The notes beneath the pieces were generated by a model. That model was not told the origin of the DNA, did not search any database, and saw nothing but the letters and a program-made list of their open reading frames with translations. From Deltaproteobacteria bacterium (GTDB taxonomy: Bacteria; Desulfobacterota; Desulfobacteria; Desulfobacterales; SpSt-501), in the NCBI GenBank assembly GCA_016219005.1, contig JACRCN010000097.1, forward strand, positions 1-64,000: a stretch of 64,000 nt of DNA. The letters run 5' to 3'. The stretch's first letter is position 1. Every line of letters starts with the position of its first letter. Below are positions 1-8,800 of this stretch, piece after piece. The translations under genes and the position numbers were made by a program.

Positions 1-100
1 CTAGTCTATGCCTTGGTTCAAGTTTGAGCGCACGACGCATGGACTTTCGTACAAACGCGCGGTGATCGGCAATGACGAGCCGTATGGTGGGGTGGCTCAT
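1..100 (-). CDS. Response regulator receiver domain, N-terminal part only (runs off the left edge)
   Basis: Reading leftward from an ATG at position 100, the 33 visible codons give a typical NarL/LuxR-type receiver start: a short beta strand (IRLVIAD) ending in the acidic pocket, then helix 1 (AFVRKSMRRALKLEP). Family members normally have two acidic residues at the end of strand 1; here only D12 is seen, followed by H13, as in many ADDH-type regulators. The phosphoacceptor and any output domain lie outside the window. No strong ribosome binding site precedes the ATG. A second receiver gene lies about 250 bases upstream on the same strand, so this may be a small cluster of response regulators. 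Family membership is inferred from a short stretch only. Confidence 0.55.
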   Translation of the reverse strand, partial: MSHPTIRLVIADHRAFVRKSMRRALKLEPRHRL

Positions 101-353
101 AGGTCACCAGAAGATAGGTGGTCCCGGTTTAATCGGAAGAAGATTCAATCGTGGAGGAAGCGGTAGCGAAGCGCATGTGTTACTCATGTAAGCCGGAATG
201 GACCCGGCTCCCTTCGCACCAGCGTGACACTGGATGTGCCGGCATGGGATCAGGTCCATGTCAGGGCCTTGTCGCGAATGTTTCATAGGTCCTCAGAGAA
301 GCTCAAGGTTAAGACCACGATGCTGAAAGGCTGATCTCGTATATTCGGGTACG

Positions 354-773
354 TCAGGGGTAGGGTTGGTCCGGTGGGTGCCCAATAACCTTCGAGGGTT
401 CGGACGAGCATTTCAAGATTGCGTCAAGGATGTCGTCCATGTGGCATCCCTTAGCGAGAAAACGGCAAGCTCCGGCTTGGAATGCCCTGTTTGAGTAGGT
501 TTGGTCGATGTACATAGTGAATACGATGACCTTGGTATCGGGGAAATTGGACGTGATGCTGCGGGTAGCTTCAATTCCGTCAAGGATAGGCATGGTAATA
601 TCCATCAGAACGACATCTGGTCTGTGTTTTTGCACGGCTTGGATGGCATATCGTCCATCCCCTGCCTCTGCAACGACCTGCAGGTTTGGCTGCTTCTCAA
701 GCATTCCGCAGATCACACCTCGGTAGAGAGGACTATCGTCGACAACAACAATCCGGATAGGTGTAGCTGTCAT
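354..773 (-). CDS. Stand-alone response regulator receiver protein (NarL-type receiver, no output domain)
   Basis: This 139-residue protein is a single receiver domain. The acidic pair D12-D13, the phosphoacceptor D58 (in VLLMDITMP-like context, read here as VVLMDITMP), T86 and the conserved K108 (FLAKG) are all present, so phosphotransfer chemistry should be intact. The sequence resembles NarL/LuxR-type receivers, but the chain ends about 20 residues after the domain with a proline-rich tail and no helix-turn-helix. It therefore probably acts by protein contact, like CheY or Spo0F, or it is a regulator that has lost its DNA-binding half. Two hybrid kinases in the same region (5.9-9.2 kb and 10.5-14.8 kb) are possible phosphodonors; this pairing is an inference. 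Confidence 0.85.
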   Translation of the reverse strand: MTATPIRIVVVDDSPLYRGVICGMLEKQPNLQVVAEAGDGRYAIQAVQKHRPDVVLMDITMPILDGIEATRSITSNFPDTKVIVFTMYIDQTYSNRAFQAGACRFLAKGCHMDDILDAILKCSSEPSKVIGHPPDQPYP

Positions 774-815
774 AAAGATCCTTCTTTGACAGAGACCTCA
801 ACAACAGCTTACCAT

Positions 816-1037
816 TCATTGCGATGGGAGCCATAAGGTAAAGACCGTATTTGCCATGTAGGCGAACGGGAAATCGGCAGGGAAATAAGCGGCAACTCTA
901 TCAGCAGCAATATCCGAGAGAGGATAGCCTGTAGTTCGGGTAATTAAATTAAAAATACCAGCGAGGCCCCAAACGGTTGCTGTTCGCTGTTGGCACGCCA
1001 CGCCGTTCCGGGTAAACCCATTCCCCTTGTTGCACAT
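816..1037 (-). pseudogene. Possible remnant of a PAS domain from a sensor protein
   Basis: A 73-codon minus-strand frame contains the stretch IFNLITRTTGYPLSDIA. It resembles the PAS domain found in CheB/CheR-PAS kinases, where the consensus is roughly FNL-I-x-x-D-x-G-R-P-L-S-D-I-A. Only about 25 residues match; the sequence before and after is unlike any domain I recognise, and the conserved R of GRPL is replaced by Y. It sits directly upstream of the lone receiver gene on the same strand, consistent with a decayed sensor gene. The call rests on pattern memory of a short motif and may be wrong. Confidence 0.25.
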
Positions 1038-1110
1038 GCGCCGACGAGAAAATACAGGATCAACCCCATTTATTTGCTTTACCCGTTAAAGTAGGTTCGG
1101 AAACAAAAGG

Positions 1111-1123
1111 GTTTACAGTAAAC
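1111..1123. promoter_or_regulatory. Perfect 13-bp palindrome upstream of the dksA-like gene
   Basis: GTTTACAGTAAAC has two perfect 6-bp arms around one central base. It begins 51 bases before the start codon of the DksA-like gene, in an A+T-rich stretch. The position suits an operator, but no regulator can be named. Confidence 0.35.
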
Positions 1124-1161
1124 AACTCCGATTCCTAATCGTCAAGGGGGGCTAATTCGGA

Positions 1162-1551
1162 ATGAACGAAAGGCAGCTCGACTATTTCAGAAAAAAACTG
1201 GCGGACGAGATCAACCAACTGGTTTCAAACGAAGCGGCGATGAAGGTTTCCCTGCAGGATTATTCCGAGGTGCATCCTGATATTCTCGACCGGGCTGTTT
1301 ATGAAGGACAGCGCGCCTTTGCTTTCCGAATTCGCGAACGGGAGAGATTACTGGGCAGAAAGATCAAGCATGCCCTGCGCAAGATAGAGGAAGGCCGCTA
1401 TGGTATCTGCGAGGAGTGCGGGGAAGATATCCCGATCGTCAGATTGAAAGCACGACCGGTTACCAACTACTGCCTGGACTGCAAAACCCGTATGGAGGCC
1501 CAAGAAAGGCTTGTCGACAGCGGTCGCATCGGGTTTTTGGAGATGAGGTGA
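1162..1551 (+). CDS. DksA/TraR family zinc-finger regulator of RNA polymerase
   Basis: DksA-type proteins insert a coiled coil into the secondary channel of RNA polymerase and act with ppGpp on stable RNA and biosynthetic promoters. This 129-residue protein has an N-terminal coiled coil with the tip motif D40-x-x-D43-x-A45 (DILDRA). This is the DxxDxA signature needed for DksA activity in E. coli. A complete C4 zinc finger follows (C83-x2-C86 and C104-x2-C107). It is about 20 residues shorter than E. coli DksA. The start at 1162 is preceded by an AAGGGGGG-like purine stretch. It is the only DksA-like gene here, so I cannot say whether it is the main cellular DksA or an accessory paralogue. 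A start-less frame follows immediately in the same reading phase. Confidence 0.85.
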   Translation: MNERQLDYFRKKLADEINQLVSNEAAMKVSLQDYSEVHPDILDRAVYEGQRAFAFRIRERERLLGRKIKHALRKIEEGRYGICEECGEDIPIVRLKARPVTNYCLDCKTRMEAQERLVDSGRIGFLEMR

Positions 1552-1806
1552 TTTCTCGTCCGTGTCAAGTTCTATCCGGATCGGGACATTGATCGGAGTA
1601 CTGGCGGGAATGCTCATCATTGCAGCGCGTATAGTTGTTTCTGGAAACGGCGAAATAAAAAGGCCTGTCGAGGGGTATTGAAAATCGAGTTGGTGCCGGG
1701 AACGAATGATATCCACTGGAGATGCCCTGCTTGTGGGAACGAGGGGACTGTCAGCGGATGGGAAGGTGCGCTATGGAATATGACGTGGTCTTTCGATTAT
1801 GCTTGA
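1552..1806 (+). pseudogene. Start-less small reading frame with a zinc-ribbon-like C-x2-C motif
   Basis: Directly after the TGA of the dksA-like gene, and in the same phase, 84 codons stay open until TGA at 1804-1806. The peptide looks like real protein: VRVKFYPDRDI near the start, KACRGVLKIELVPG in the middle, then HWRCPACGNEGTVSGWEG. It resembles small hypothetical proteins with a RCPxCG-x-G-x-I-x-GW ending. No ATG, GTG or TTG occurs in frame before a TTG at 1678, which would leave only 42 residues and no good ribosome binding site. Likely explanations are loss of the original start, use of the late TTG, a rare start codon, or readthrough of the dksA stop. Confidence 0.4.
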
Positions 1807-1835
1807 CAATTGCATTATGAATCGCATCGTTAGAT

Positions 1836-1861
1836 CGGATAACGCCGAAATCCGTTATCCG
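1836..1861. promoter_or_regulatory. Inverted repeat, 9-bp arms
   Basis: CGGATAACG (1836-1844) and CGTTATCCG (1853-1861) are perfect inverted arms around an 8-base spacer. The element lies about 27 bases after a TTGACA hexamer at 1803-1808 and about 165 bases before the small cysteine-rich gene. It could be an operator or an RNA hairpin near a transcript start. No matching -10 hexamer is clear. Confidence 0.35.
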
Positions 1862-1999
1862 AGGAAGAGGGTGGCAAGCTGATGTTGAAAGGGTGAGGTT
1901 TCATCCTTGCTGTACATAGCCTCAAGCCCTCCCACCTCGTGAACTCAAGAAGAACGCCCGGGCGATGCCGGAATCTTGCAGGATGGCCCGTGTTGAGAG

Positions 2000-2022
2000 G
2001 ATACCTCGAATGAGGAGGTATC
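2000..2022 (+). promoter_or_regulatory. Hairpin that would sequester the Shine-Dalgarno sequence of the next gene
   Basis: GATACCTC (2000-2007) pairs perfectly with GAGGTATC (2015-2022) across a 7-base loop. The Shine-Dalgarno core GGAGG at 2014-2018 lies largely inside the right arm, eight bases before the ATG at 2026. In RNA this 8-bp stem would hide the ribosome binding site, so initiation may depend on temperature, a ligand, a protein or an antisense RNA. Confidence 0.45.
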
Positions 2023-2025
2023 GTG

Positions 2026-2271
2026 ATGAGCGAAAGAGAAAGAGGGTTTATTTACAAGAATTGCATCAGTCGATGCCGGTTCAAGGCCAAGAACTGTATC
2101 CTGAAGGATGATGGGAAATCGGATTGTTCAACCAAGCTGGAAAACTGCATCTACCTGTGCGAAATAGACGACCCGAGAAAGATGTTGAGAGGCCGACAGC
2201 CGCAGTCACGGGAAATGGCTCAGGCCGCCAATCGCCCTGCAATTACCTTTGCTGATCGCCTGCACCATTAG
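2026..2271 (+). CDS. Small cysteine-rich protein of unknown function, symmetric Cys spacing
   Basis: This 81-residue protein is not recognised. Counting from the ATG at 2026, its first 45 residues hold six cysteines: C13, C17, C24, C34, C41 and C45. The spacing C-x3-C-x6-C-x9-C-x6-C-x3-C reads the same in both directions. Twin CX3C motifs flanking a helical hairpin suggest either disulfide stapling or metal binding. The remaining 36 residues are polar, basic and cysteine-free. No signal peptide or membrane segment is visible, which argues for a cytosolic metal or redox role over an exported disulfide protein. A GTG three bases upstream is an alternative start. GAGGAGG at 2012-2018 supports 2026 and sits in a hairpin. 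Confidence 0.6.
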   Translation: MSERERGFIYKNCISRCRFKAKNCILKDDGKSDCSTKLENCIYLCEIDDPRKMLRGRQPQSREMAQAANRPAITFADRLHH

Positions 2272-2334
2272 CGCATCCAAAAATCACTTCAATATATCCC
2301 CGCAACATTCACCCAAGGTGTTTCAAAAATTTAG

Positions 2335-2373
2335 TTGACTTTGATTTTTAACAGATATACTGGTTCTACCAGT
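2335..2373 (+). promoter_or_regulatory. Promoter with overlapping GntR/FadR-type operator
   Basis: TTGACT (2335-2340) and TATACT (2356-2361) form a sigma-70-like promoter with a short 15-base spacer. The palindrome ACTGGTTCTACCAGT (2359-2373) overlaps the -10 end and the likely start point. It fits the TGGTNNNACCA pattern bound by FadR-subfamily GntR regulators. The GntR gene begins 43 bases downstream, so autorepression that also controls the transporter and hydrolase behind it is the simplest reading. Confidence 0.65.
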
Positions 2374-2416
2374 AGCTAAGTTGCTCAGCTTAAATCCCTC
2401 TTCAATCGGAGAAGCC

Positions 2417-3112
2417 ATGCTTACACCCATAAAAAAGAAACGCGTCTCAGACATGGCCATAGAGCAGATAAATCAGCTCATATCCGCGGGTCACCTCAAA
2501 CCTGGTGATACGCTCCCTTCAGAGAGAAAACTGATGGAGAAATTTAAAATTAGCCGAGTTCCGGTGCGAGAAGCCTTGCGGGTCCTTGAGATGATGGGAG
2601 TGGTTGAGGTCAAACCTGGCAGAGGCATATACGTCACGGACCCTGAAAACTCACTCTTTAGTCCCTTGAGGCAATGGCTCTCTGTCCAGAAGGAGACGCT
2701 TGTCAACCATTTTGAAGTGCGACTGCTTATTGAACCCCGCGCCGCAGCGTTCTGTGCGGAGCGAGCCTCCAAAGAACAAATCAAAGCCATGAAAAAATGC
2801 TTGCGCAGCTTTTTTGAAGCCCAGGCTGAAAATAAACTGGTGGATATGATCAGAGCAGATACTCAACTTCACCAGTTGATTGCTGAAGCAACAGGGAACA
2901 GAACATTGGCGACCCTGATGAGTACTTTCACCAACTCGCTCCTTGAGGGGTGGAAAGCAAGCCTTAGGACGGAAGGTCGTGGGGAGAAAACGGTTGAAGA
3001 GCACGCCACAATCGTTGAAGCCATTGAAAAAAAAGACGGTGCAAAAGCCGAGAAACTGATGAAGAACCACCTGCTTAATGCACTCTCTGACCTGAAACGG
3101 GCCGGTCTTTAG
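2417..3112 (+). CDS. GntR family transcriptional regulator, FadR subfamily (FCD ligand domain)
   Basis: This 231-residue protein has an N-terminal winged helix-turn-helix. The GntR signature is clear at about residues 8-70 (LKPGDTLPSERKLMEKF, then SRVPVREALRVLEMMGVV and a VKPGRGIYV wing). An all-helical FCD domain follows, with the usual HQLIAEATGN-type segment and a late conserved histidine region (EEHATIVEAI). FCD domains bind small carboxylates or other metabolites, often with a metal ion. A TTG at 2381 is in frame, but the ATG at 2417 has GGAG five bases upstream and gives the normal N-terminus. A FadR-type palindrome overlaps the promoter. The transporter starts 67 bases downstream with no terminator between, so it is the probable target. 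The effector is unknown. Confidence 0.85.
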   Translation: MLTPIKKKRVSDMAIEQINQLISAGHLKPGDTLPSERKLMEKFKISRVPVREALRVLEMMGVVEVKPGRGIYVTDPENSLFSPLRQWLSVQKETLVNHFEVRLLIEPRAAAFCAERASKEQIKAMKKCLRSFFEAQAENKLVDMIRADTQLHQLIAEATGNRTLATLMSTFTNSLLEGWKASLRTEGRGEKTVEEHATIVEAIEKKDGAKAEKLMKNHLLNALSDLKRAGL

Positions 3113-3179
3113 AATTATTAAATCTGTTCGAAGCTGACAGGAGCATGACATGAACTTGAAAAAATGAGAGGAGGGTGTA

Positions 3180-4619
3180 ATGGCTGCAGCGCAGGCAAAT
3201 GAAAGAGGCGGTGGAGTGGAAGTTGCAGACCCCCCCAAGGGGCTCGCGATTCTTTCAATGATCGGGCCCGGCGTTGTCTGGGCGGGACTTGCCATCGGAG
3301 GGGGGGAGCTTGTTCTGATCCCCCGTGTGGGAAGTGTTTACGGAATGATGTTCCTATGGATGTCCCTCCTCGCCATCGCTCTAAAGTATTTCATGCTTAA
3401 CGAAGTCGGCAGGTGGTCAGTTGCCACCGGAACAAGCATTTTTGATGGTCTTGCCCTGATACCCGGGCCCAGAAAATGGCTGAGTTGGACACTCCTTTTT
3501 GTTTCAATTTACCTCGGTGCTGTGCACATTGGCGGTTTGGTGTCGATGGTGGGCATCATTTTCCACACAATGGTTCAAGTATTCACTCCTTTTGTTTGGT
3601 CAATAATCATCATGGTGTCCTTCGTTGCGATATCTTGGACACATAAATACAGCCTTTTGGAGAGGGTTCTGATTGTTTTTGTTGGGTTGCTTACGGTGAG
3701 CGCAGTAATAATCGGGATTGCCTTTTTCCCTCCGCTTAAGGATCTGGCGGAAGGCTTCATGTTCCAGATTCCATCTGCAACCCCGGATTGGGCTGTTACA
3801 AATTATAAAATTTCTAAATCTCCAATGGTGGAGATATTGCCAGCCATGGCTTTTGCAGGATGTGGCGCTGTTAACAGCCTTTGGTACTCTGATTGGGCGC
3901 TTTCCAAAGGGTTGGGCTTGGGCAAGTATTTTGATGGACTGGAGAACACGGCGTTAGGTTACCAGGATCTTAAAAACTTGGATCGACCAACTGCAAGCAA
4001 AATCAAGGGCTGGATTCGCGTTATGTTCAACGATGCCCTTTGGGGGGCAAATTTTCTAACCCTCATTGTCACATTTTCCTACCTTGTTCTGGCCATCGTC
4101 ATTCTTCATCCGCTGAAAGAGGCACCTGGTGGTTTGAAATTCATCACTACGCTCTCCCAGACTTTCACAAAGACCTTAGGGCCTTGGGCCCATTGGCTGT
4201 ATCTGGCCGGTGCCTTTGGAGTAATATACAGCACCATGGCAACGATTTATGACGGATACGCCCGCACCATCAACAAGCTAATCCTTATTTGCGCTCCAAA
4301 TTGGGAAGCGTATCGGAAACTGTCTCCTTTATGGCGTTACCGCATGTGGTTTCTTTATGGTACGTGTGCGAACTTTTTTCTTGTTTACATTTTTAATGCC
4401 GTGCCGGTTGATTTCCTTCAGGCTGCAGCATGGGTCGAGGGCACTTTCTTGTTCCCAGTGGTGGCTTTCGCCGTAGCCTATCTTACAGCAAGAAAGCTCC
4501 CTTCCTTTTACAGCGAATCAACAAGAGACTTAATCAAACCCAATCCTGTGTTCACGATTGGAACGATCGTAGGTGGCATTTTTTACATTGTACTGATTGT
4601 CATTTTGATAGCGCGGTAA
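3180..4619 (+). CDS. Nramp-fold membrane transporter with non-canonical metal site
   Basis: This 479-residue protein has about 11 hydrophobic helices and the overall pattern of the Nramp (SLC11) family. In classical Nramp proteins, TM1 carries a DPGN motif and TM6 an MPH motif that bind Mn or Fe. Here the TM1 region reads GPGVVWAGLAIGGGELVLIP, with GGGE (residues 40-43) where DPGN would be. The TM6 equivalent reads ILPAMAFAGCGAVNSLW, with no MPH. It therefore probably belongs to a divergent Nramp-like branch with another substrate. Related proteins are often annotated only as Nramp family transporters. GAGGAGGG lies just upstream of the ATG. The gene follows the GntR regulator by 67 bases and precedes an MBL-fold enzyme by 72, so all three probably form one operon. 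Membrane location is secure; the cargo is not. Confidence 0.7.
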   Translation: MAAAQANERGGGVEVADPPKGLAILSMIGPGVVWAGLAIGGGELVLIPRVGSVYGMMFLWMSLLAIALKYFMLNEVGRWSVATGTSIFDGLALIPGPRKWLSWTLLFVSIYLGAVHIGGLVSMVGIIFHTMVQVFTPFVWSIIIMVSFVAISWTHKYSLLERVLIVFVGLLTVSAVIIGIAFFPPLKDLAEGFMFQIPSATPDWAVTNYKISKSPMVEILPAMAFAGCGAVNSLWYSDWALSKGLGLGKYFDGLENTALGYQDLKNLDRPTASKIKGWIRVMFNDALWGANFLTLIVTFSYLVLAIVILHPLKEAPGGLKFITTLSQTFTKTLGPWAHWLYLAGAFGVIYSTMATIYDGYARTINKLILICAPNWEAYRKLSPLWRYRMWFLYGTCANFFLVYIFNAVPVDFLQAAAWVEGTFLFPVVAFAVAYLTARKLPSFYSESTRDLIKPNPVFTIGTIVGGIFYIVLIVILIAR

Positions 4620-4691
4620 CATAATCATGTGTAAACGGCGGGTGGAAACCTTGAAGCCCCTTCCACCCGCCTCGATCACAAAGGAGTTGAC

Positions 4692-5552
4692 ATGTCGATA
4701 CCGGGCTGGAAATTGAAAATTCTTGTGAATAATTGGGTGGGCGAAGGGGCTTGTATTGCGGAGCATGGTCTTTCCATGGCCATCGAAGGCGGCGATCTGG
4801 CTGACGACCAGTTTGTTTTGTTCGACACTGGTCGCTCGCCGCAGGTACTTTTCAACAATGCCCAGGCAATGAACGTCGACTGGAGCAAGCTTTTGTTAAT
4901 AGCTCTGAGCCATTCGCATTACGACCATTCCGGTGCCTTGGTTGGCATTGGCAGATACCTATGTAGAAATATATCGGTAATCGTACACGCCGACACCTTT
5001 ACCCCCAAGGCGAATTTCAAACCGACATTCAGGGACATTAGCATCCCCTGCTCAAAGGAGGAGCTTCAGGCTGCAAATATTCTGCTATCGGCAGATTCAA
5101 ATGATAGATTCCTCACGCCCAACCTATGTTTGACGGGAAAGATAGAGCGAGTAGTCGCCTTTGAGGACCTTTCTCATAAAAATCTATTCAGGATGAGTCT
5201 TGGAGAGTATGTCCCTGATATTGTTATGGACGACCGAGCCCTCGTGATACGCGAGCCAGGAGTGGGTTTTCACCTGATCTGCGGCTGCTGCCACTCGGGC
5301 CTGCTTAATACCCTCAATCATGCTGCTGCGATCAGTGGTGAACGCCGTGCCTTGACGATCATGGGAGGCTTGCATTTGGGCTCCTATGATGACGACGCGA
5401 TGAAGCGAGTCACCGATCAGCTCGCTCAATGGGAACCGCGCAGGATTATTCCGCTGCATTGCACAGGGTTGAGGGGTTCCGCCCAACTGTGGAGCCGTTT
5501 CGGAGACATCGTTGAATTTCACGGTGCGGGAGAGACAATAGAGCTTACCTGA
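4692..5552 (+). CDS. Metallo-beta-lactamase-fold hydrolase (dihydropterin/RFA-P synthase-like)
   Basis: This 286-residue protein has the MBL metal-binding motif HSHYDHSG around residues 75-82, a later CGCCHSG histidine, and a C-terminal PLHCTG histidine. The arrangement with GGLHL resembles the family annotated as 7,8-dihydropterin-6-methyl-4-(ribofuranosyl)-aminobenzene-5-phosphate synthase (MJ0301-like). That name comes from methanogen biochemistry and is often spread by homology, so the true substrate here is unknown. The first acidic-histidine ligands are complete, so activity with two metal ions is plausible. AAGGAG lies seven bases before the ATG. Its position behind a GntR regulator and a transporter suggests uptake followed by hydrolysis of one compound. 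No signal peptide is visible, so it is cytoplasmic. Confidence 0.75.
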   Translation: MSIPGWKLKILVNNWVGEGACIAEHGLSMAIEGGDLADDQFVLFDTGRSPQVLFNNAQAMNVDWSKLLLIALSHSHYDHSGALVGIGRYLCRNISVIVHADTFTPKANFKPTFRDISIPCSKEELQAANILLSADSNDRFLTPNLCLTGKIERVVAFEDLSHKNLFRMSLGEYVPDIVMDDRALVIREPGVGFHLICGCCHSGLLNTLNHAAAISGERRALTIMGGLHLGSYDDDAMKRVTDQLAQWEPRRIIPLHCTGLRGSAQLWSRFGDIVEFHGAGETIELT

Positions 5553-5881
5553 ATCCTCCAGGAAAGAACCGCCAGAAGAGAAGATATTCCATTTACTTCG
5601 AAGGAAGCTTTTAGATATTATCAGCAGCGAAATATCATAGAGGCGGAGGATCGGTGATGATTCGGATCTGATATCCGTACTCCCGTTACGCTGCCAGCTG
5701 CACGTGCCCGCGGCCATTCGGATTTTGTGGGATTTACCCAATAGGCACAGACTGTCGGACTCTTGCTCAGCGAAGATTTTCCCCTCACTTTTCCATGCAC
5801 CCGTTTGGTTACGATCAGCCGACCAACACGCCGGCATAATCTCAAAGAAATGCTAAAAAAAGAATCGTCTTAAATCTTACC
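5553..5881. other. Intergenic region without recognisable gene
   Basis: These 329 bases separate the convergent MBL gene (plus) and hybrid kinase gene (minus). Minus-strand open frames here have no family resemblance and no ribosome binding site. No stem with a T-run is clear, so the terminators of both flanking genes remain unidentified. Confidence 0.4.
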
Positions 5882-8800
5882 TTAGGCGTCGAGAGCCCTC
5901 CTTACTGCAGCGGCAAGGTCTCTAGCAACCAGCGGTTTGAGCAGAAAGGACTTGATCCCAAGAGAATACGCCTGTTTCTCATCGATCTGATCGCTGAAGC
6001 CAGTGCACAAAATGATCGGCACACCAGGGCGGATCTGAATCATCTGTCGTACCAGCTTTATCCCGGTCATCTGCGGCATAGTCAGATCCGTGATGACGAG
6101 ATCGAAACTTTCAGGCTTCGCTCGAAAGGCTTCGAGAGCCTCGACGGCGCTGGTCCTGACCTCAACATCGTATCCCAGCCAATTAAGCATTTGTTTTTCG
6201 ATATCGGCGAGTGCCTTTTCGTCATCCACCAGCAAAATCCGCTCTTTCCCACCGGGAGGCGTCGCGAGGGGTTTGGTTTCAGTCGAATCATAACCCTCCG
6301 CGCGAGGAAGAAGGATCTGGAACGAGGTTCCTATCCCTATTTCGCTATATACTTTGATCGTCCCTCCGTGAGCTTTTACAATCCCGTGCACTACGGATAG
6401 CCCGAGTCCGGTTCCCTTGCCTTTTTCCTTGGTGGTGAAATAGGGGTCGAAAATTCGATTCATGACATCCGGGGCGATGCCGTGACCTGTATCTGTCACA
6501 TCCAGTCTGACGTATTGGCCTGGTTCCATGTCCGAGTCAAATCGGACGTCATCTTGGTTAAATGTGACGTTCGAAAGGTGTATTTGGAGAACGCCACCGG
6601 TCTTTTCCATGGCATGGGCCGCGTTTGCGCCCAGATTCATCAAAATCTGTTGCATCTGGGTGGGGTCGGCCATGATATTGCCTGCCTTTGGATCAATCTG
6701 CTGGCGCAGCTGGATGTTTGATGGAAGGGAGGCGCGTAGGAACTCGAACGTCTCTTTTATGATGGCCTTCAAATTGAGCAGGATTTTTTCCTGCTTGGCA
6801 TGGCGGCTGAAGGCGAGAATCTGGCGTACCAAATCCTTTGCCCGCTGGGAGGCCGTTATGATGTTACCTAACGTGTCCTTGGACGAACTCGCTACCGCGT
6901 TCGTCCAATCAAGCATCTCAGCGCTCCCCATGATTACCCCGAGAATGTTGTTAAAATCGTGGGCAATGCCCCCGGCAAGGGTGCCCAGGGACTCCATCTT
7001 CTGCGCCTGCTGCAGTCGGCTTTCCAGCTTTTCTTTATCTTGGTCTGCCCGTAGCCGTTTAACGGTGGTGCCCAGCTGAAGCGCCGCCGTCTCCAACATT
7101 TCGACCACTTCCAACGGCACCATGCCCTCGCGACGGTCGGCCACATGGATCAATCCCAGTATCCGGTCGCCGTCACGGAATGGAACCAGCGCCACAGACT
7201 CGTAGCCCTCCTGGTTGCACCTGTTGCGCGTTTGCCCCTTGTCTTTCTCCGAAACCGTTGCCAGAAAACGGGTAGTACCGCTCATGTAAAAAGAGCCCCC
7301 TTGGGTATAAAACGGGAGAGCGGGGTCGGTAGTTCCCTTGATAACGTTGATGCACATGCACTGGTTCGACTTTATGGAAAGAGGGCTTTCCAAATTAAAA
7401 AATTCCTGACTGAAGCCCGTGCAAGCCCAATATGGAATTCTGCCTTCCTCGTCGAGAATCCTTATACCGACAGCCTCACACCCCGTGTATGCTTTGATTT
7501 CGGACAAAAATGCCTCAAGCAGAGGTGTCATCTCCCTATGGTCGTGAACGATCTCAAGAAAACGATGAGAGACTCTAAGCGCCGTCTCGTCCTTTTTGCG
7601 CTTGGTGATATTTTCAAAGACCGCAACAAAGTGATACCGTTGCGGGCTATATGCTGAAACGGAGAGCCAACTGGCCAACGGTTTGAAATAGATCTCAAAC
7701 GGTTCGGCCTTGCCGGTCAACGCAATACGGCCATAAATCTCAAGCAGTTCGGGCGACATTTCTCTGATCCCCGGAATCACATCACTGACTTTTCTGCCGA
7801 CTACGTTTTCCAATCCAGTCAGCCGGGTGAATGCCTGGTTGACATCGAGATAGACAAAGTCTACCGGGCGGCCCTGGTCATCGAAAAGCATTTTACAATA
7901 TGCAAACCCGTTTAACATGTTTGCAAAGAGAGCCCGATATCGCTCCCCGCTCTCCTGAACGGCGATTTCCGCTCGCTTGCGCTCCGTGATGTCCAATATT
8001 ACCCCGACCATCCCGGTGGTATTACCATCGGCTCCGGAGAGGGTCGCCTTGTGAAAAACGATATCGCGAAGCGTCCCGTCCGCAGCTAAACTCTGACCCT
8101 CATACATCTGAGGTTCACCATGATCGTACAATTCCTTATCTTTCTGCAGATAGATACCGGCCAGTTCCGGGGGGGAGATGTCAGATACGGATTTGCCGAT
8201 GATTTCTTCCCGCCGAATACCCTTGAACTCCTCGAAGGCTTTATTGCAGCCGGTGTAAGCTCCTTTAACATCCTTGAAAAAGATCGGAGCGGGGATGGCA
8301 TTGACCAGCTGCTGCAGGAATGCGAACTGATGCCGCAAATCCTCTTCTGCCTTCTTGCGGCCGCTGATATCACGGAAGACAGCGAAATTTTGAGTTTCGC
8401 CCTGGTACTGAACTGGCACTCCAGTAGACTCCACTATTATTGCCTGCCCATCCAGAGCTGAAATTCGGTGCTCCCGAGGAGGGGCAATCCATTTTTCATT
8501 CATCCCCCTTTTAATCCGTTCAATGGACTCGGGTCGGTCATCCGGGTGAACCAAGTCCAAATAACGCTTTCCCACCAATTCTCTTGCGTGGCTTGCCCGG
8601 AAAAGCTTAACGGCAGCTGGGTTCGCGTAAATAACGAACTCAGAGGATCGCACCAGGATTGCATCTATCGAGGACTCAACAATTTGGCGGTGCCGCTCTT
8701 CGCTTTCGCGCAGCGTATCCTCTGCTTGCTTGCGCTCCGTGATATCGCGGATAACAGAGAGGATGACGTCTTCCTGATTCAAGCTCAAGACACGAGCCGA

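Follow-up and report, generated by a model that had tools for sequence, protein, structure and literature searches.

In the window, as we call the whole stretch of 64,000 nucleotides analyzed here, positions 2026-2271 of the forward strand hold an ORF coding for an 81-aa protein (ATG at 2026, stop codon at 2269-2271), which consists of MSERERGFIYKNCISRCRFKAKNCILKDDGKSDCSTKLENCIYLCEIDD followed by a tail up to residue 81. The core C13-x3-C17-x6-C24-x9-C34-x6-C41-x3-C45 spans 2062-2160 (+), with Cys codons starting at 2062, 2074, 2095, 2125, 2146 and 2158, and the ORF, its coordinates and the x3-x6-x9-x6-x3 arrangement of six cysteines are all as described in the initial annotation. In the window protein, the residue numbers of each mirror pair sum to 58, and the mirror centre is therefore D29, within the turn D28-D29-G30 (2107-2115, +), where Gly at position 30 is found in 15 of 16 aligned rows. 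The C-terminal tail of 36 residues (2161-2268, +) has no counterpart at the other places examined, is modelled with low confidence from residue 56 onward, and is possibly the product of a lost stop codon. No export signal was visible by eye in MSERERGFIYKN, in line with the initial annotation.

The ORF listing begins one codon upstream, at GTG 2023, but we took ATG 2026 as the start since the Shine-Dalgarno sequence AGGAGGT (2013-2019, +) sits 6 nt upstream of it. This site is overlapped by a hairpin, GATACCTC / GAGGTATC (2000-2022, +), with a stem of 8 bp (2000-2007 / 2015-2022) and a 7-nt loop. Its predicted stability of -15.5 kcal/mol was equalled by none of 200 shuffles (z -4.8), and a second set of shuffles gave the same picture (z -5.2, 0 of 200). 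The proposal of a hairpin-controlled start thus holds for the presence of a hairpin in the window, whereas no comparable structure was found in 16 relatives: over the same 56-nt stretch, their start regions have z values between -1.4 and 1.4 and do not stand out from shuffles. A further place was left out for shortage of upstream DNA. Averaged over a longer stretch, the predicted pairing of the Shine-Dalgarno site does not set the window apart either, since its value of 0.71 falls within the 0.43 to 0.87 of the relatives. The hairpin is a local feature of the window, and since none of the 16 shows one, control of the start would be at most a local trait. A scan of window positions 1540-2430 gave no sigma-70 promoter, Rfam gave no match on positions 1-6000, and no second genomic copy of the start region was found at E<=0.001.

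When the window protein was used in a single-sequence search of 96 genomes (its own included), weak matches appeared in three other genomes, all with the exact six-Cys spacing. Profiles made from these first matches were then run through samples of the same order, where A1 recovered 13 of 291 genomes, A2 15 of 389, and A3, at E<=2e-9, 19 places spread over 16 of the 389 genomes, the next row standing at E 0.004. The 33 further A3 rows with E 0.004-0.05 were excluded from the count, and the six-Cys core, exact or loosened, was absent from the 14 of them that were scanned. The profiles are dominated by Cys, and relatives without these residues could have been missed for this reason. The exact spacing is kept in 18 of the 19 places, the window included, which represent 15 distinct cores; the nineteenth (G201) lacks C1 and C6 and retains the four inner cysteines C2-C5. 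In G148 two places share an identical core, one of them at a contig end, and they may be one gene assembled twice. Besides the start Met, the six cysteines are the only fixed columns in the alignments of exact-spacing members (A2, 12 rows; A3, 9 rows), and the G189 member carries an additional, seventh Cys close to its N-terminus. With starts chosen by hand, the other 17 exact-spacing places code for 47 to 53 aa, with 1 to 6 residues beyond the sixth Cys. Because the relatives keep the spacing while the remaining sequence changes, the six-Cys proteins form a genuine family. The homology search with the Cys pattern proposed in the initial annotation thus came out in its favor, and homologues devoid of the cysteines, which would have spoken against it, did not appear apart from the partial loss in G201.

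Three subfamilies can be recognized by the motifs ICKTRERNC, DGTWDC and DCIE[DE]C. They are probably paralogues, since G093 holds one member of each. The window protein has RCxFxAKNC and DG..DC in common with the DGTWDC subfamily.

That such a small ORF, without an annotated family and sporadic in its occurrence (16 of 389 genomes), could be a chance reading frame with no function was also considered. Across all six reading frames of the window, the exact spacing is expected 3e-5 times and occurs once. This expectation refers to one pattern chosen post hoc and not to any mirror pattern; the relatives are a stronger argument than this figure for a real motif. Sites resembling a Shine-Dalgarno sequence, of 4-8 nt, precede the gene in all 17 places with upstream DNA. 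In six pairs of equal length and over 60% identity, none of the core cysteines differ, and silent codon differences outnumber replacements in four (G234/G689 5:0, G004/G005 3:1, G189/G004 13:7, G189/G005 14:7), which supports coding constraint in the closer pairs; the two distant ones gave 13:14 (G130/G684) and 11:17 (G093b/G189). Together with the exact spacing in nearly all places, these results stand against a chance ORF, a reading that the existence of relatives refutes in practice.

Two samples of the phylum, each with 12 or more genomes from the window's order (the window's own genome among them), yielded only that genome (1 of 395 and 1 of 297). Other phyla were covered by the genome-contig scan only, in which 6 of 66 pattern matches were confirmed; the confirmation used the divergent window sequence and may have dropped true relatives among the other 60. 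Five of these loci are named as Desulfobacterales and one as an Olavius-associated proteobacterium Delta 1, and they appear to be the places already known in G211, G148 (two), G189, G005 and G004, adding no members. Of the 18 and the 3 pattern matches from two scans of viral contigs, not one could be confirmed, and phages gave no match to a DCIEDC member. A plasmid row (E 0.3, 48% coverage) was rejected, leaving no plasmid relative.

That the initial annotation named no known family is borne out by the searches: Pfam, NCBIfam and PADLOC returned no match, and PHROGs only two rows, of one member each (E 0.16 and 0.26). We found no published description of the six-Cys family in a literature search of partial coverage. 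It is therefore a small-protein family unmatched in four family libraries and marked by a palindromic Cys spacing. The only row from the PDB by sequence profile, at E 3.7, was rejected. The Foldseek comparison of both structural models with the PDB (best E 0.31 and 2.2) is uninformative for a bare hairpin.

Twin Cys motifs in a hairpin are known from mitochondrial proteins, namely the small Tim proteins (twin CX3C, four Cys) and the CHCH proteins (twin CX9C). The window family differs from both in being bacterial and unmatched in Pfam, and in its six Cys spaced x3-x6-x9-x6-x3. It has the twin CX3C of the small Tim proteins, but with two extra kept cysteines, and its single C-x9-C (C24-C34) lies across the turn. 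Another comparison is with SCIFF peptides, which are defined by a profile and adjoin a radical-SAM maturase. Six cysteines within about 45 residues, encoded by a short ORF, would suit a RiPP precursor of this kind. Such a precursor is nevertheless very improbable, given that NCBIfam is unmatched and that CX3CX2C is absent from the nearest predicted proteins of at least 120 aa, up to six per locus, at 18 loci (the G684 locus being excluded).

The mirror layout is compatible with any two-arm hairpin centred on D29-G30. The initial annotation had suggested a helical one. Arithmetically, steps of 4 and 7 between cysteines stay on one face of a helix, but both AlphaFold models are beta hairpins. 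With the window protein as first sequence, strands cover residues 9-26 and 32-48 (block pLDDT 78-92 over residues 11-40, pTM 0.30); with the L024 member first, they cover 14-27 and 33-46 (best mean pLDDT 69.6, the other four 52.5-58.7). Both jobs took the same six sequences as input and do not count as independent. From geometry, we infer that a step of 7 along a regular strand would turn C3-C4 away from the face of the other pairs, and that the distance from C1 to C2 would be too great for one metal site. Chou-Fasman values and hydrophobic moments over 16 rows give a mixed picture. The former favor helix in arm 1 in 11 rows (2 tied, strand higher in 3) and in arm 2 in all 16; the moment peaks at about 160 degrees in arm 2 and at 100 degrees (60-65 with shorter segments) in arm 1. 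We have a slight preference for helical arms, against the only computed models. The family may serve as a test case for structure prediction, its spacing suiting a helix where the model gives a strand.

Regarding the connection of the cysteines, a nested pairing C1-C6, C2-C5, C3-C4 is favored by the sequences, since G201 loses the outer two together, a single event in a single case, and by the symmetry. In the 15 cores, positions adding up to 58 showed no covariation signal (0.004, against 0.057 for the neighboring sum of 59).

Mirrored six-Cys peptides with a helix-loop-helix fold do exist. The alpha-hairpinins, plant antimicrobial peptides, have the motifs CX3CX4-20CX3C (4C) or CX3CX3CX4-20CX3CX3C (6C), and the cysteines are sometimes their only fixed residues (PMC11591084). 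They share with the window protein a mirror-symmetric twin CX3C, the possibility of six Cys and a hairpin layout. The window family differs in its inner spacing of x6 instead of x3, in being bacterial and in showing no secretory precursor; between its two CX3C there are 23 residues with two more Cys, which departs from both motifs. Its genomes are bacterial and no signal peptide is seen by eye, unlike what defines a secreted plant peptide.

The likeness raises the possibility of a disulfide-stapled mini-protein, whose structural cysteines would form three nested disulfides, in a helical or a strand ladder, and which would function as a peptide for binding or inhibition. It might act outside the cytosol, reached by lysis or by a route that needs no signal peptide. 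The near absence of other fixed residues, as in alpha-hairpinins (PMC11591084), the paired Cys loss in G201 and the fit of a cystine ladder to the hairpin models are in its favor. The members that were read have no signal peptide by eye, however, and their hosts are, going by the names of related records, Desulfobacterales, presumably with a reducing cytosol; nor does any Pfam family recur beyond 3 of 62 gene neighbors. We consider this reading tentative and place it second.

The window gene is preceded by a gene for a DksA-type protein and followed by those of a GntR/FCD regulator and a Nramp-type transporter. These neighbors are not conserved: among the 25 most numerous of 122 Pfam families, none is represented in over 3 of the 62 neighboring proteins, and no metal- or redox-related family recurs, so that the stress- or metal-responsive role put forward in the initial annotation gains nothing from the gene context. 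The set comprises the nearest two proteins per side of at least 120 aa at 18 loci under a longest-ORF rule, some of which may not be genes; it omits one of 63, proteins longer than 1200 aa or containing unknown letters, and the G684 locus, and some recurrences in it stem from near-identical genomes. Within the same 25 families there is also no recurring regulator or thiol-oxidoreductase, which counts against a thiol redox sensor or buffer, in which the pairs would normally be reduced and, on exposure to oxygen, become oxidized and alter the binding of a partner. The three possible Cys pairs and the lack of a visible export signal would agree with such a sensor, which we find doubtful and rank third.

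We place first, with a probability of roughly 0.35, a cytosolic thiol hairpin that would bind soft metal and be able to oxidize to stacked disulfides. A mini-protein of some 50 residues, not exported, would form a two-arm hairpin around the D/N-G turn at the mirror centre, in which the cysteines would oppose one another as the nested pairs named above. Since an anaerobe has a reducing cytosol, its thiolates would most likely hold a soft metal, Cu(I) or Zn(II), as an ion or a small cluster; upon oxidation the cysteines could shut into three stacked disulfides. Both functions, metal binding and redox switching, are proposed by analogy. Two of the six codon comparisons (the distant pairs), the beta hairpins of both models, the lack of a recurring metal- or redox-related family among the neighbors listed and the missing covariation at sum 58 weigh against the metal-binding hairpin, and the cysteines could be mere staples of the fold. 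If a metal or redox role holds, stacked thiol pairs would have in this family a natural scaffold of very small size, and at about 50 residues it would be readily testable.

A partial analogue is Csp3, in which CXXXC motifs of one helix and Cys of a neighboring helix bind Cu(I) (PMC5171941). CXXXC motifs, many Cys and the lack of a signal peptide are common to both (PMC5171941), but the Csp3 monomer is a four-helix bundle with 18-19 Cys, while the window family has two arms and six Cys and gave no match to Pfam or NCBIfam. By dimerizing, a two-arm hairpin could resemble the Csp bundle. Going further, although we think it unlikely, two identical hairpins might dimerize into a four-arm bundle with twelve Cys, a miniature cytosolic metal store or buffer that would have evolved independently of Csp and metallothionein, whose palindromic Cys code would lock as three stacked disulfides per chain with oxygen.

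Other short Cys-containing ORFs were seen in these genomes. A 42-aa ORF with CPAC, at window positions 1678-1806 (+), has a weak likeness to a zinc ribbon (E 0.008, below the cut-off). A second small Cys-rich family, of about 58 aa, has the pattern CC..CDYC..CYRR..C in two members and fewer Cys in others; it includes L044 9052-9225 (G207), L048 9109-9282 (G047) and, in the genome of the window, L088 (G000:C9:74581-74751). Two of its members gave one Pfam row, below the cut-off (E 0.13). It lies downstream of the six-Cys gene by 36 bp in G047, about 0.3 kb in G207 and about 1.1 kb in G189; in G005 (E 9.7e-4) it is located upstream instead, at about 0.4 kb and on the opposite strand. It occurs in 10 of 16 carriers and in 6 of 32 hand-picked non-carriers, counts that ignore relatedness. 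Between the two genes in G189 there is another short Cys-rich ORF, MSDDKEKHDECKLTQTDSEGNTNLCCCYILNQDGQYEDPCYLPVEDCCC (L043 3545-3694, -).
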